A stretch of 64,000 bases of DNA from Acidobacteriota bacterium (GTDB taxonomy: Bacteria > Acidobacteriota > Blastocatellia > RBC074), in contig JACPYM010000022.1 of assembly GCA_016196035.1 (NCBI GenBank), positions 124,001 to 188,000 of the forward strand. Direction: 5' to 3'. Positions 56,502 through 62,353 of this stretch are shown here, piece by piece; position 1 is the first letter of the stretch, and each line of letters starts with the position of its first letter. The position numbers and the translations under genes were made by a program. Under the pieces are notes generated by a model that did no database searches, had not been told where the DNA came from, and saw only the letters and a program-made list of their open reading frames with translations.

Positions 56502-56696
56502 ATACTTCTAAGTCCTCCAACTTCACTTTAACTACTGTCGCTTTTAGGCCGGTTTCCGCGCCGCACCGGCGTTATCGTTATATCAAAACTTTGCGCTGCC
56601 TCCGAGTACAAAATCTCCGGGCCGGCAAGTTCGGCCTTCGATGAGGGGCGCCCGCATCCGTGTTGCCAAGCCCGCACGCCCGGCAAAGATATTTCC

Positions 56697-57545
56697 TTAG
56701 CCCAGCCGCTCCATCACAAAATCGGCGATGCGTTCCCCGCCCTGCGGCACGCCTTTGTAACCGGGGAAGCAGTTGACCTCGATCACCGAATAGCCCTTCG
56801 GCGTCTTGACCAAATCCACGCCATAAAGCTCCAACCCGAACAGCTTGCCGCAACGGCGCACCAGTTCTTCCAACTCTGGGTCATCCCCAACCGGTGTGCC
56901 CAGCTTTTCTTCCTTGGTCTTCGCCGGAAAGATGCGCTTGATCGCGTGCACGTAATCGCCGATGGCGTAGGCCTTGTAATCATACGGCTCGTGCTCTTCG
57001 TATTCCTGCGCGTAAATCAGCCGGTCGCCCAGCGCCGTACCGTCTTCGCCCCCGCCATCGTCGTCAGCGACTTCGCCATCCGCCGCCCGTCGCGCCACCA
57101 AGGCATCGAATGCGGCCTCGTCCATGCACACCTCAATACCCATCCCGCGCCGCCCGCGATAAGGTTTGACCACGATGGGCATCTTTTGCACGACCGCGCG
57201 CAGCGTTTCCATCGAATCGGTCACAAAGGTGCGCGGCGTCGGGATGCCGCCCTGCAACAGCAACGTGCAAGTCAGCACCTTGTCGCGCACTTTCATCGTC
57301 GCCGGGTATTCATTGAGCAGCTTGGCCCCGGCATAGTGCGCCGCCGCCGCCAGCGATTCGGCCAGCGGCGAATGCGATTTGAACAAGTAGGCATCAAACT
57401 CGAACTTGAAATTTTCCAAGTCAATCAAACCGCTGCGCTCGGTCACGATTTCTACATCCGCGCCACGCGCTTTCAACCCGTTCAGCACGTCGTAAGTCAC
57501 CGACGTTTGGCTGCGCGGTGGTTCCATCAAAAAGCAGATACGCAT
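56697..57545 (-). CDS. ATP-grasp enzyme 1 of 4 (ITPK/RimK-like)
   Basis: 282 residues. [23 protein letters not shown] (N-terminal domain), [17 protein letters not shown] (ATP Lys and glycine loop near 135), [26 protein letters not shown] (base- and substrate-binding Lys) and [27 protein letters not shown] (metal Glu and Asn) form a complete ATP-grasp fold. The N-x-F-P-G-Y and K-x-Y/F-x-x-G-x-x-x-x-x-(V/I)-(Q/K/R) pattern resembles inositol 1,3,4-trisphosphate 5/6-kinases more than RimK (which has N-x-S-P-G-L). A DDDGGGED linker (near 165) is a small insertion. It lies next to the phytase gene. Confidence 0.85.
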
Positions 57546-57674
57546 ACGTTAAAGCTCCGATCAGATATTCACTGTGGAAAATACAGTGGAAAAATTGTTG
57601 AAAAGCCTGTGAAGATCAATTGGATTTCGCGTGGAAATCCTGTGAATGCGTGTGGAAAACTCAGTGACGATCTT

Positions 57675-57707
57675 CCCACGAAGGCACACGAAGAAGACAC
57701 GAAGGAT
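57675..57707. repeat. Left inverted repeat of the GxxExxY gene
   Basis: CCCACGAAGGCACACGAAG continuing to 57707 is the reverse complement, with few mismatches, of 58134-58165. A third copy appears folded at 59392-59466. Confidence 0.85.
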
Positions 57708-57751
57708 TGTTTTCTGCCTGGCATTCCTTCATTTGCGTCCAGTGGGACAGG

Positions 57752-58135
57752 TCATTTGACGAGTCTATGCCACTCGAGTTTGCCGCGACTGCCAAAGTTG
57801 ATCAGCACACCAACCCGCAGGCCAGTAGCATTCAGATAGTTCAGGATTTGGGCTTCTTCCCTGCTTGTTAGCTTCTCCAGCGCCTTAAGTTCGACAATGA
57901 TCTGGCCGTAACAAACCAAGTCAGCCCGGTAATCAACGCCAAGTCTTTGCCCTTTATAAAAAACCGGCAGGGACTTCTCGGCTTCAAAGGGGATTTGGCG
58001 ATTCGCCAGTTCAAGTTTTAACGCCGCGTGATAAACCGCTTCCAAGAAGCCGTTTCCCAACGCGCTATGCACCTCCATCGCGGCGCCTACGATGGCATAG
58101 ACTTCATCGCGCAAAAGCAATTCCTTCACTTCCAT
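57752..58135 (-). CDS. GxxExxY-motif PD-(D/E)XK-like nuclease
   Basis: 127 residues. VGAAMEVHSALGNGFLEAVYHAALKLEL contains the G-x-x-E-x-x-Y motif; PVFYKGQRLGVDYRADLVCYGQIIVELKA holds the Asp...E-x-K of a PD-(D/E)XK core and EEAQILNYLNATGLRVGVLINFG the last conserved part. The GAAGGAG in the right inverted repeat serves as its ribosome site, nine bases before the ATG (58135). The gene lies between inverted repeats and interrupts the ATP-grasp/MFS row. Biological role unknown. Confidence 0.85.
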   Translation of the reverse strand: MEVKELLLRDEVYAIVGAAMEVHSALGNGFLEAVYHAALKLELANRQIPFEAEKSLPVFYKGQRLGVDYRADLVCYGQIIVELKALEKLTSREEAQILNYLNATGLRVGVLINFGSRGKLEWHRLVK

Positions 58136-58165
58136 CTTCGTGTCTCCTTCGTGTGGCTTCGTGGG
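58134..58165. repeat. Right inverted repeat of the GxxExxY gene
   Basis: Complement of the left copy at 57675-57707. It ends in the start codon region of the nuclease and contains AAGGAG in the coding direction. Confidence 0.85.
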
Positions 58166-58175
58166 AGGACAATTC

Positions 58176-59378
58176 CTAGTCAGATTTCGCATTCGCGCCC
58201 CGCGCCACCACCACCGCATAAATCTCCGCCACCACCGCCATCCCCACGCGCACGCCCAACATCACCGCCACGCCCCAATGCTGCCACAAAAAACCGCCCA
58301 GCATCGGCCCGACGGTTTCGCCAATCCCTTCGCCCAAGCCGAAATAGCTCATCACGCGCGCGCGCCGTTTGCGATCCAGGCTGGCCGCTTGCGCCATCAA
58401 TGCGCCCCAGGCCGGACGAAACGCCGATTTGCCAAGCGCGTCAATGCAACTGCCCGCCGCCAGTCCCGCAAACGTCGGCACAAAGATAAACAGTAGCGAC
58501 GAACAAATGTTGGAAACTCCGCGCACCAGCAACACCAGTTTGTGATTTACGTTATCGGCCAGCCAGCCAAACAGCGGCCCGCCCACAATCGTCACCAATG
58601 GCCCGAAAGTGTAAATCCACCCGGCCTGCGCCGCCGTCAGGTGCGCGTATTCGGTCGCCAGCACCGGGAACAGGTTGTTCATCATCATCGCGGTGCTGGT
58701 AATCAAAGAACCCAAAATCAGTACGGGCAAGAATGATCTGCCGGTTTTCGCGGCCACCGGTTCAGCCTCGTCCGCCGCCTTGCCAGTCAACGGCGTGTAA
58801 TGGGGCGGCTCTTCCAGATAACGAGCCACCACGAAGAGCGGCAAAAACGACATCGCAAAGGCGATCAGGAAGACGTTTGAATAACTATCCAGCGTCCACC
58901 ACAACAACCAACCGCCCAGTGCCTTGCCCAGCGAACCGGCGGACATCTTCGCCGTCGTGTACCAACCAAAGGCCGACGCCATCTTCTTTTTATCGGCGTG
59001 TTCGGCAATCAGCGCACTGACCGACGGGTCGCGCAACGATTCCGAAAACCCGTGCAGCATCTTGATCACATACAAGTGCCACGGAGCGTTGGCAAAGATC
59101 AGCAACAATGCCATCACCGACCGCAACGCAATCGCGATGGTGAACGACGGCTTCAACCCGATACGGTCGGCCAGCCAGCCCATCGCCGGTTTGAACGTCT
59201 GCTCGACGATCAGATTGACTGAAAACAGGAAGCCCGTCGCCGTCAGGCTCAGGCCCATCTTCCGGTATGCAAAGAGCGGCAGCGCGAAGCTGATAATCCC
59301 GAACGCTAGGCGCGATAAAAAACCTTCGGCCAGGATGACGAGCAGCGAGGGCGAAACTTTACCGGACGCTTGATTCAT
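58176..59378 (-). CDS. MFS transporter, paralogous to the MFS part of the FHA fusion
   Basis: 400 residues, about 12 membrane segments. It shares with the fusion's transporter half [22 protein letters not shown] (fusion: [22 protein letters not shown]), [20 protein letters not shown] and [20 protein letters not shown] (fusion: [20 protein letters not shown]). The paired D-R-x-G-x-K motif after helix 2 is normal MFS. Start ATG 59378; the codons upstream form part of the hairpin repeat. It is probably an exporter of a product of the ATP-grasp pathway; substrate unknown. Confidence 0.87.
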
Positions 59379-59391
59379 CAAACAAAAAAAC

Positions 59392-59466
59392 CCTCCCACG
59401 AAGCCACACGAAGAATCACGAAGAGACTAACGATCTTCGTGTGCTCTTCGTGTGTCTTCGTGGGAG
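59392..59466. repeat. Empty palindrome with the GxxExxY-type ends
   Basis: CTCCCACGAAGCCACACGAAG at the left is mirrored by CTTCGTGTGTCTTCGTGGGAG at the right with only about ten bases between. It looks like the two terminal repeats of the GxxExxY element joined without cargo, between two genes of the ATP-grasp row. Confidence 0.8.
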
Positions 59467-59472
59467 AACCTC

Positions 59473-60309
59473 TTATTGCGCCAGATTCGCCGCTAAGTTT
59501 GGAGGACTCAACGTCGTCTTGCCCTGCGCATAGGCGTCAATGTAATCCGCAATCATCCCCGCCGCGCCCTCTACGCCCTTGTAGCCGGGGAAGTAGTTCA
59601 CGTCCACCACAAACGGCCCGCGCTCGCTCTCGATGATGTCCAAGCCGTACAAGCCCAAGCCGCAAACCTTGCCGACTTTCAAGGAAATCTCGCGGACTTC
59701 ATCACTGATGGGTACTGGACGGCCCGGCACTGAGAAGCTGCTTTCAGAAAACGGCTTCTGCACGCCGTGGACTTCTTCACCCGCGACGTAGATTTTCAAA
59801 TCCTCGCCGTGCCCCGGAATCGCTTCCTGAATGATCATGGGCGTGACGGGTGCGGGCAGCTTGTCAATGTCTTCGGGCGTCCGGCACAGACTGACGCCCG
59901 CGCCGCGATGGCCCATGTGCGGTTTGATGATGAGCGGATGCTGGCTGACCAATTCTTTGGCCAGACTCAGATCGCCCGTCGTCCAAGACTTCGGCGCAGG
60001 CACGCCGCCTTCCAACAACAATCGCGATGTGATGATCTTGCTCTGAATCAGCGAGCATGACGCATACGGATTCAGAATGTTCGCGCCCTGCACGTGCAAA
60101 ATGCCCGCCAACGCCAGCGCCAATTCCGTATGCGATTTCAGCACATACATATCGGCTTCGGGCCTGAGCGTGTCGGGACGTTGCAGAATCTCTTCCGCGA
60201 TGTCTTCGGTAATGGTGTAACCGCGCCCCCGCAAAATCTCGTACATCTCGACCAACACGGGCGAGGGGACGGGCGGGACGCGGCGAACGATCATAAAGTG
60301 GAGTTTCAT
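59473..60309 (-). CDS. ATP-grasp enzyme 2 of 4 (ITPK/RimK-like)
   Basis: 278 residues. [40 protein letters not shown] (ATP Lys, glycine loop), [30 protein letters not shown] and [30 protein letters not shown]. The third and fourth blocks resemble human ITPK1 (VQNFI.....YKVFVVGE....VQRP; FGIDIIINN...VIDINAFPGYEGV), which makes this one the best ITPK match of the four. Substrate unknown. It lies 94 bases upstream of the MFS. Confidence 0.86.
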
Positions 60310-60318
60310 CAGTTCACC

Positions 60319-60795
60319 TCAAAAGTTATAAAGTTGCTTAGGGACACCCAACGCCAGCGCAAGCAGCAAGCTGATCAATAGCCAAGCAATAGATGAAATC
60401 ATAGGTGAGGGTAGATGCTCCCCTAGCATCCCAATGCGATAGCGAATAATCCAATATGCAGATTGCAACGTGACAAAAATTGGCAGCCCGTAAGCCCAAC
60501 CACGTGGAATAAACAAGCTCAGTAGTTCTGGTACTCCCCATAAAACTATCAGGAGCAAGCAGGCAACAACCAGCAAAAACCCGATATATTGGGTGAGGCT
60601 TTTATTCTTTGGTTTAAAGTTCGGCGACAGCCAGTAAAGCGGAAGAAGTACCACAGGAAGAACCAAACATTTGCTGACAATTGTCGGTAGATGCCAGATT
60701 CGAGCTGGAATATCTCCTAAATACACAGACAAGAAAATGGCGACAAATTCCGCCCAACCAAGCTTTGAGCGAGTTACTGTTTTTGCGTCTTCCAT
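60319..60795 (-). CDS. Small membrane protein, low-GC orphan
   Basis: 158 residues with four hydrophobic helices (LVLPVVLLPLYWL, IGFLLVVACLLLIVLWGVPELLSLF, GLPIFVTLQSAYWII, SIAWLLISLLLALALGV). No family recognised. The DNA is visibly richer in A and T than the ATP-grasp genes on either side, which suggests recent transfer. ATG 60795 was chosen over TTG 60807. The stop is 9 bases upstream of the next ATP-grasp start. Confidence 0.65.
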   Translation of the reverse strand: MEDAKTVTRSKLGWAEFVAIFLSVYLGDIPARIWHLPTIVSKCLVLPVVLLPLYWLSPNFKPKNKSLTQYIGFLLVVACLLLIVLWGVPELLSLFIPRGWAYGLPIFVTLQSAYWIIRYRIGMLGEHLPSPMISSIAWLLISLLLALALGVPKQLYNF

Positions 60796-60850
60796 AGCCT
60801 TAACCAAACAACTTTGCAGTAAGAGCGGCCGGCGTTAGAATGTCGCCGCT

Positions 60851-61219
60851 ATGTCAACAGCACCTTTAATGAGCAAAGAATATGTCACCAAACTTGAGTT
60901 CGAGTTTGAAGGCCAGCCCCGCATCGCCTACCGCATCGCGGGCACGCGCATCTCGCTCGATTCGGTTATTTACGCCTGGCGGCAAGGGGAATCGGCAGAC
61001 GGCATCGTGGATTGCTACCCATCGCTCACTCAGGAACAAGTCCACGGGGCGCTTGCGTTCTACCTTGCTAACCAAGCCGAATTTGACGAGTACTTGCGGC
61101 AAGGTCAAGAAGACTTCGAGCGGATGCGCCAAAAAAGCCAGGAAGATATGCGTCAAAATCGCCCGGAGCTTTACCAAAAGTTGCAAGCAGCCAAAGCGCA
61201 ACGCCGCCAAGCCGCGTGA
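60851..61219 (+). CDS. DUF433 antitoxin-like protein
   Basis: 122 residues. GQPRIAYRIAGTRISLDSVIYAWRQGESADGIVDCYPSLTQEQVHGALAFYLAN is the DUF433 domain (helix-turn-helix type, found as antitoxin of DUF5615). The C-terminus is a charged helix (EDFERMRQKSQEDMRQNRP). It shares TGATG with the next gene. It is on the opposite strand to the surrounding ATP-grasp row. Confidence 0.85.
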   Translation: MSTAPLMSKEYVTKLEFEFEGQPRIAYRIAGTRISLDSVIYAWRQGESADGIVDCYPSLTQEQVHGALAFYLANQAEFDEYLRQGQEDFERMRQKSQEDMRQNRPELYQKLQAAKAQRRQAA

Positions 61220-61578
61220 TGCCCCTTATGCCAATTCGTTTCCAAGCCGATTACGACTTCAACCACAGAATCATCCGCGCGGTGCGCACTTGTGTTCCGG
61301 CCATAGATTTTCAAACTGCCCACCGCGCCCAACTCATCGGTTTGCCTGACAGAGAGGTCTTATCCGTTGCTGCGTTTGAAGGGCGCATTCTGGTTTCGCA
61401 CGATGTGACCACCATGCCCAGCCACTTCGCTGCTTTCATCACTCAACAAAACAGCCCAGGCGTACTGCTTATTCCGCAAAGCCTCTCCATCAGCCGGGCC
61501 GTCGAAGACCTTGTGATCATCTGGAGCGCGTCTGAGCCTGAAGAATACGCCAACACCATTACTTGGCTACCGCTTTGA
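61219..61578 (+). CDS. DUF5615 PIN-like toxin
   Basis: 119 residues. IRFQADYDFNHRIIRAV, REVLSVAAFEGRILVSHDVTTMPSHFAAF and VLLIPQSLSISRAVEDLVIIW match DUF5615, a PIN-domain-like ribonuclease group with Asp residues at similar places (D near residue 11 and SHD near 61). It overlaps the convergent ATP-grasp gene 3 by 20 bases. The pair is a probable toxin-antitoxin module. Confidence 0.83.
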   Translation: MPLMPIRFQADYDFNHRIIRAVRTCVPAIDFQTAHRAQLIGLPDREVLSVAAFEGRILVSHDVTTMPSHFAAFITQQNSPGVLLIPQSLSISRAVEDLVIIWSASEPEEYANTITWLPL

Positions 61579-62353
61579 GAATGTAATCCGCCAGCAACTC
61601 CGCCGCATCCGGCACGCCCTTAAACCCCGGAAACGTGTTGATGTCCACCACGAACGGCTTCCCTTCTGACGTGATGATGTCCAGGCCGAACAGGTCAATG
61701 CCGAACGCCTGCCCGCACGCCAGACAAATCTGCCGCATCTCTTCGGGCACCTCGAAGGCTTCGCCCAGCTTGTCTTCCAGCGTCTTGGGCGGCCAGACGC
61801 GGCGCACGCCGAAGACCTTGTCGCCGATCACGTACAGCTTGTAATCGCGCCCGTCCGGCTTGTGCAGCCGTTGCGCAAAGAACAGATCATCCGAGGTGAC
61901 GTTCGCCAGTTCGTCCGCACTGTGAATCATCTGCACGCCACGCCCTTGCGAAGCGCCCCAAAATGGTTTGACGACCAGCGGCCCACGGGTGAGCAAGCCC
62001 GCCAACTGTTCGGCCTTCCCGGCGAAAAAGGTCGCGGGCAACGGCACGCCCGCGCGTTGCAGCACTTGCGTAGACAGAATCTTGTCCTTCATCAGCACAA
62101 CAGTCGGGTACGGATTGAGAATCCGCGCGCCCAGCCCGTGCAGCAATCCAGCGTAACCAAGCGCTGTCTCGGTGCCTGCTTTGAGCAAATACAGATCGTG
62201 CGTGTTTTGGATAGCGGCGACGTCATTGCACTGCGCGTCTGGATAGATCATCTCGACGACATGGCCGCGCGCGGTCAGCAAGTCCGCCGCCTGTTGCATC
62301 ACGGAGCCGCTGCGGCCCGCTTTTTCCTGGGTAGAGATAACGCCGATTTTCAT
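61559..62353 (-). CDS. ATP-grasp enzyme 3 of 4 (ITPK/RimK-like)
   Basis: 264 residues. LYLLKAGTETALGYAGLLHGLGA, LVVKPFWGASQGRGVQM (ATP Lys and glycine loop), DYKLYVIGDKVFGVRRVWPPKTLEDK and GIDLFGLDIITSEGKPFVVDINTFPGFKGVPD. The last two blocks match the ITPK-like pattern described for copies 1 and 2. Its 3' end overlaps the DUF5615 gene coming from the other strand. Substrate unknown. Confidence 0.85.
   Translation of the reverse strand: MKIGVISTQEKAGRSGSVMQQAADLLTARGHVVEMIYPDAQCNDVAAIQNTHDLYLLKAGTETALGYAGLLHGLGARILNPYPTVVLMKDKILSTQVLQRAGVPLPATFFAGKAEQLAGLLTRGPLVVKPFWGASQGRGVQMIHSADELANVTSDDLFFAQRLHKPDGRDYKLYVIGDKVFGVRRVWPPKTLEDKLGEAFEVPEEMRQICLACGQAFGIDLFGLDIITSEGKPFVVDINTFPGFKGVPDAAELLADYILKAVAK

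Follow-up and report, generated by a model that had tools for sequence, protein, structure and literature searches.

GxxExxY nuclease genes and their periodic inverted repeats: a possible partnership in the spread of intergenic palindromes

Among described systems, RAYTs with their REP and REPIN repeats (REPtrons) are the nearest precedent for the locus analysed here, but by its enzyme GxxExxY is not a member of this group. The likeness extends to a gene lying between two inverted palindromic repeats, a multicopy extragenic repeat, hairpin-forming doublets, co-evolution of gene and repeat, and, less clearly here, a copy number linked to the cognate gene (PMC2817692, PMC8266576, PMC3116915). 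Inverted flanking repeats, gene-repeat co-evolution and the abundance of cognate repeats are listed for RAYT/TnpA-REP in one of these (PMC2817692).

Here, a comparable arrangement is described around a GxxExxY gene in an acidobacterial genome. The window is a stretch of 64,000 nucleotides (contig JACPYM010000022.1, positions 124,001 to 188,000), and all coordinates below are positions within it. A first-pass annotation of this DNA had drawn attention to a nuclease gene bounded by inverted repeats, which it took for a small mobile element.

The gene-bearing unit and its nuclease

The whole unit, an arm followed by the GxxExxY gene and a second arm, covers about 500 bp (57671-58169, minus strand), and no copy of it occurs at the orthologous junction in five readable relatives. 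The gene (57752-58135, minus strand) encodes 127 aa (TIGR04256 / PF13366 PDDEXK_3) and does lie between inverted copies of one repeat, as first described. The distal arm (57671-57704) consists of three CACGAAG units at a pitch of 10-11 bp, and the gene-proximal arm (58136-58169), its inverted copy, directly adjoins the ATG. Each arm is 34 nt long; the two are 91% complementary and 431 nt lie between them. On the minus strand, the proximal arm reads ...CACACGAAGGAGACACGAAG directly before the ATG. Judged from the sequence, it contains a Shine-Dalgarno-like AAGGAG (58144-58149) that ends 8 nt before the ATG, while the distal arm has AAGAAG at the equivalent position. This difference agrees with the first-pass annotation, which went on to propose that the repeat serves the gene. 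An arm that supplies the ribosome site seems to hold for this unit, but was rejected as a general rule, since a ribosome-site-like motif lies within the arm in only 21 of 124 good-armed units from the surveys described below.

The unit is flanked by an ORF for an MFS transporter (58176-59399, minus strand), whose stop codon lies 6 nt away, and by a downstream RimK-like ATP-grasp ORF (56697-57545, minus strand). Three RimK-like ATP-grasp ORFs and the MFS transporter form a minus-strand row at 56697-62353 that is partly conserved in the host's family, and palindromes are present at two junctions of this row. The next junction of the row holds a solo CACGAAG palindrome without a gene (59392-59467), with a predicted RNA fold of -49.6 kcal/mol (z -10.1). 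A known structured RNA was considered and rejected, as Rfam gave no match in 56600-60000.

The window protein is a plain member of its family, scoring 146.7 bits against TIGR04256 (cut-off 35) and 144.3 bits against PF13366 (cut-off 22). PF13366 was the only domain in a Pfam scan (E <= 0.001), and the same scan found no HUH Y1 transposase domain. RecB/Cas4-like PD-(D/E)XK enzymes are characterised by a conserved E, a D, an ExK and a QxxxY motif. The corresponding residues, E32, D72, E82-x-K84, Q96 and Y100, are invariant in alignments of 17 (A1) and 35 (A4) rows, so that the predicted catalytic residues are intact and the protein is, by sequence, a putative nuclease of this type.

An AlphaFold2 model of the protein (pLDDT 93.5, pTM 0.86) has as its best PDB match SSO0001 (4ic1; Foldseek E 2.1e-4), which we take to be a Cas4; comparison of the two by VIA gave Z 9.6 and rmsd 3.6 over 98 aligned residues. 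Further Foldseek rows included a restriction-like protein and lambda exonuclease, and no solved homologue was found by sequence at E <= 1. The modelled fold is thus Cas4-like, although a shared fold proves no function. Cas4 proteins carry a four-cysteine iron-sulphur site. With one cysteine among its 127 aa, the window protein cannot have such a site.

Other origins of the protein were also considered. A phage origin was rejected (no phage match, no PHROGs match and no relative in one viral-contig scan), as was membership of a defence system, for which PADLOC gave no match. Among 72,556 plasmid records, 8 carry relatives of the protein; they come from Treponema, Bacteroides, Prevotella and other genera, and each is rated non-mobilizable.

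Arms and proteins across phyla

The genome that carries the window has four GxxExxY genes, each flanked by an inverted pair of a periodic repeat of its own type: CACGAAG, CACAGAG, ACAGGAT and ACGGAA (types assigned by eye and alignment). These four are not copies of one unit, and no further copy of the whole window unit, such as a self-spreading element might leave, was found in this genome. The CACAGAG-armed gene contains an in-frame TGA. Matches interrupted by a single in-frame stop were seen at four GxxExxY loci (L002, L051, L092 and L101), and decayed copies recur in the surveys.

Across the phylum, the GxxExxY family was identified in 107 of 297 genomes. In the phylum survey, which took 94 loci from the best-scoring family members among the matches listed, an arm score of at least 30 was reached at 79 loci versus 5 of 349 neighbour ORFs. 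The window unit scores 53 against a median of 18 for these 349 ORFs, which come from related genomes and were scored alike. A second survey of named genomes started from 80 loci with about 20 phylum-level names in their record titles, including one archaeon; after three were dropped for short flanks, the same score was reached at 51 of 77 loci versus 7 of 292 neighbour ORFs. Taken together, arms flank 130 of 171 GxxExxY loci but only 12 of 641 neighbour ORFs, so that the expectation of similar ends on GxxExxY genes elsewhere was borne out; the 41 loci under the threshold include both loci whose arms are similar but weaker and loci with none. These comparisons in both surveys rule out a chance match as the source of the window arms. 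The median unit length is 500 bp, and the upstream arm is CACNGAR-like and reads into the gene in 108 of the 124 good-armed units, against 7 in which it reads the opposite way.

The type of arm follows the protein. On a FastTree tree of 132 proteins, built from few columns and with many weak forks, the arm class (the author's own regular-expression classes) changes 13 times over 123 rows and 7 classes, 9 rows labelled 'other' being excluded from the count. By comparison, 200 shuffles gave a mean of 62 changes and a minimum of 53, and shuffling inside the two sampling sets gave a mean of 43.5 and a minimum of 37. The tree set left out 39 of the 171 loci (arm score < 28 or no readable protein). 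The nearest protein has the same arm class in 112 of 132 cases (32.9 expected), and in 27 of 132 (12.7 expected) when sought between the two sampling sets. The distance correlation is 0.449, versus 0.168 +/- 0.026 when permuted. For example, record titles and the tree place Acidobacteria, Bacteroidetes, Planctomycetes, Firmicutes and Gammaproteobacteria in one ACAGGAT clade. Gene and flanking repeat thus co-evolve, with arm type following the protein tree across phyla.

Gene-less palindromes and operon junctions

Most CACGAAG repeats form solo palindromes, about 75 bp long and closed by a short loop, and gene-less palindromes are often found where two co-directional genes are separated by a short junction. 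In the gene-bearing copy, the nuclease gene takes the place of the loop within the same palindrome. In the 9.6 Mb genome that carries the window, a 17-mer gave 97 + 116 matches at up to two mismatches, versus 1 + 2 for a reversed-pattern control, and for 24 of 30 fetched CACGAAG arms an inverted partner lies no more than 150 bp away. Exact pairs, counted for three of the four arm types of this genome, number 213 for CACGAAG (control 0), 213 for ACGGAA (control 10) and 20 for ACAGGAT. At one locus (L034), a CACAGAG-type palindrome adjoins a CACGAAG arm in a nested arrangement.

These numbers bear on the form in which the element spreads. The suggestion of a small mobile element holds in so far as the unit is an insertion (see below), but what spreads is mainly the short palindrome without a gene and not the 500-bp unit. 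An autonomous transposon moving mainly as a whole gene-bearing unit, as in the first-pass annotation, would account for the terminal inverted repeats, the single nuclease gene and the empty sites. It is nevertheless very unlikely, given four genes with four arm types against 213 CACGAAG pair matches, the excess of solos over units, and the fact that no unit was found twice in this genome. Solos were also considered as deleted units: among six loci with decayed or odd inserts, a tblastn search for GxxExxY remnants returned a single weak match (L427, E 2e-4), which does not establish such an origin.

Among 11 full solos of this genome, the spacers between units vary but are mirrored. Both spacers are the same in the two arms in 6 of the 11, versus 2% between copies, and base identity is 57/75 within copies versus 53% between them. 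This may reflect selection for hairpins, or else the rewriting of one arm on the pattern of its partner; in the latter case, every copy may go through a hairpin intermediate in which such rewriting takes place.

On another reading, the host keeps the palindromes as mRNA or DNA hairpins, for operon tuning or transcript ends, and GxxExxY is a nuclease of the host that either processes these hairpins or uses them for its own regulation. The great stability of the hairpins (z -10 to -13 for RNA folds of four solos) and the mirrored spacers would suit such a role, as would the frequent position of palindromes directly behind a stop codon and ahead of a ribosome site. A host function is nonetheless improbable: orthologous junctions of close species are empty or hold unrelated families, clade-matched arms are common to about 20 phylum-level groups, as in horizontal spread, and decayed and nested copies occur.

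At the MFS/ATP-grasp junction that holds the window's unit, two relatives (G325 and G235) are empty, and three (G323, of the same genus, G328 and G275) carry a solo palindrome that differs in type from the unit's arms. These are the five relatives that could be read; in a sixth, G330, the contig ends before the junction. Because the orthologous junction is empty or solo-bearing in relatives, the unit is an insertion, and the empty sites that a mobile element should leave do exist. At the neighbouring ATP-grasp/MFS junction, relatives (L296, L298, L300 and L301) carry other inverted repeat families, GATGGGAGTAATGGG-like or GAGGGA-like, with no known partner gene.

Similar states were found in one other genus, of which 47 genomes were searched; gene names are the author's reading of flanks, and the stretches were chosen from search hits, so that the state counts are not frequencies. 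The fadA-fadB junction was read as empty in 20 stretches, solo in 10, decayed and holding a second, nested palindrome in 1, and full in 10, and carA-carB as empty in 6, solo of three types in 16 and full with CACGAAG arms in 4. For rpoB-rpoC, 2 full places and 1 one-arm remnant were read, and of 20 stretches fetched 15 were empty and 5 had no anchor. The L356 junction showed 16 empty stretches, 2 with short non-palindromic extras, 1 partial and 8 full. At L058, 13 stretches were empty, 9 held solos belonging to several types, 1 was shortened and 3 were full. Within a decayed gene-bearing unit (L235), a CACAAAG-type palindrome is nested. Six operon junctions thus differ among relatives in being empty, solo and/or gene-bearing. 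At L356, the sisters G150 and G133 are empty at 96.5% flank identity to the full G236, and the insert has tails of some 18-25 nt beyond the arms. A target duplication had been suggested as a further mark of mobility; none longer than 3 bp was found at L356, the one clean junction, other junctions being too diverged.

Repeat-rich genomes also tend to carry the gene. Of the 18 genomes with 20 or more CACGAAG pairs, all have GxxExxY, versus 89 of 279 others (p = 4e-9), as do 15 of 17 with at least 10 ACAGGAT pairs versus 92 of 280 others (p = 7e-6), in samples where related genomes are non-independent and a large genome may contain more of any feature. At lower CACGAAG thresholds, the gene is present in 25 of 26 genomes (at least 10 pairs) and 37 of 43 (at least 5 pairs). 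G030 has 10 CACGAAG pairs and no GxxExxY, and a GxxExxY match is absent from G219 (112 ACAGGAT pairs, rated 100% complete) and G242 (78), whose pairs may be relics, the work of another mobiliser, or partners of a diverged gene.

The matching of cognate gene to cognate repeat abundance is weaker than for any GxxExxY. Of the 18 genomes rich in CACGAAG, 11 proved to have a gene with CACGAAG arms, one of them (G188) by loose matches only, and none was seen among the loci read in the other 7; split matches were merged, so that the 8, 10 and 6 matches of G188, G142 and G243 represent 5, 9 and 5 loci. In the phylum survey, such a gene was present in 5 of 19 genomes with at least 10 pairs versus 0 of 48 with fewer (p = 0.0012), and in 3 of 14 versus 2 of 53 at a threshold of at least 20 (p = 0.058). 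At the ACAGGAT-type site L356, further matches (BLAST match counts, not curated copies) had a median of 19 in 8 full genomes versus 2 in 27 empty ones (p = 1e-5); of the 47 genomes, 9 that were unclear at the site and 3 that were partial were left out, and the empty-site G065 has 15 in all.

The main rival explanation is that another agent spreads the palindromes, while GxxExxY is a homing-type passenger whose product opens the loop of the cognate palindrome, into which the gene is then copied. The gene does sit in the loop's place, cognate specificity fits equally, and some palindrome-rich genomes lack the gene. However, homing into a resident solo predicts a solo of the same type, whereas at the four junctions where both were read the relatives' solos and the unit's arms generally differ in type, which counts against homing. 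As for the agent, the Y1/RAYT-type transposases of the same genome are an obvious candidate, with 14 Y1_Tnp matches there (G000) and 7 in G275. Yet no Y1 match was found in G116 (219 pairs) or G142 (54), and none of 24 fetched Y1 loci has a CACGAAG pair within 600 bp. A Y1 transposase was therefore rejected as mobiliser, and spread by another mobile enzyme of this kind is extremely unlikely; the same observations make a passenger with a Y1 agent unlikely. Homing in general we regard as unlikely rather than very unlikely. Two Y1 transposase genes of the genome (L442 and L452) have long inverted flanks of other sequence and are possibly ordinary RAYT/REP pairs.

A proposed partnership and its relation to known systems

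The reading we consider probable is a REP/RAYT-like partnership, in which a Cas4/RecB-type nuclease stands in for the HUH transposase, acting in trans to spread the palindrome cognate to it. The unit would then be the coding member of a two-part selfish system. GxxExxY would recognise a palindrome whose arms consist of about three short units (here CACGAAG) at a pitch of 8-11 bp, bind the folded arms as single-stranded DNA or cruciform, and nick the palindrome ends together with an intergenic target. Strand joining is beyond PD-(D/E)XK enzymes on their own, so the host must contribute a step: as a conjecture, host replication or repair would copy the hairpin into its new place. In this way, one gene could give rise to many gene-less copies in trans, as proposed for RAYT/TnpA-REP with REPINs. 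While the arrangement, the co-evolution and the differing states of orthologous junctions are observed, we infer the binding of the arms by the nuclease, its action on single strands or hairpins, and its role as the cause of the spread.

A broader claim is put forward more tentatively, as one we hold to be possible but somewhat short of probable. GxxExxY may represent a class of mobile elements new to bacteria and archaea. Here a single Cas4/RecB-type hydrolase would do without any strand-joining transposase and, acting in trans, would disperse hairpin palindromes matched to its clade via host replication or repair. This class would account for several abundant periodic intergenic repeats (CACAGAG, ACAGGAT, CACGAAG and CGCNGAT types).

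The mentions of GxxExxY found in the literature are in passing and make no link to repeats. A literature search, with most subscription journals outside it, found nothing joining GxxExxY to repeats, although absence from print is unproven, and the exact repeat strings led only to unrelated papers. Comparison across many other microbes suggests that the enzyme, together with its own kind of repeat, makes up a spreading element previously undescribed as such. A widespread family without a known role in the literature searched would thereby gain a concrete, testable function, and several abundant periodic palindromes a candidate mobiliser. If true, it would also explain the repeated gain of hairpins at core operon junctions such as rpoB-rpoC and carA-carB, and a lone PD-(D/E)XK nuclease could sustain dispersal.

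Compared with known systems, the locus combines familiar and unfamiliar traits. MITEs and their parent insertion sequences are likewise short non-autonomous inverted-repeat elements with ends in common with a gene-bearing relative; in contrast, the GxxExxY unit has no classical transposase, no target duplication longer than 3 bp was seen at the one clean junction, and the spacers of the short palindromes vary yet stay mirrored. Cas4 (SSO0001) offers the closest solved fold to the modelled window protein, but the latter is much shorter, has one cysteine and sits in a palindrome. With RAYTs, the layout is shared and the enzyme differs, being a PD-(D/E)XK protein of predicted Cas4/RecB fold instead of a HUH Y1 transposase. 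The repeats differ too: neither of the REP foot tags GTAG and CGTC is present in the two window arms, and a GxxExxY arm, unlike a REP, is built from about three short units that follow one another at a pitch of 8-11 bp. If the proposed partnership is true, the REP/RAYT strategy would have been invented a second time, by unrelated chemistry.
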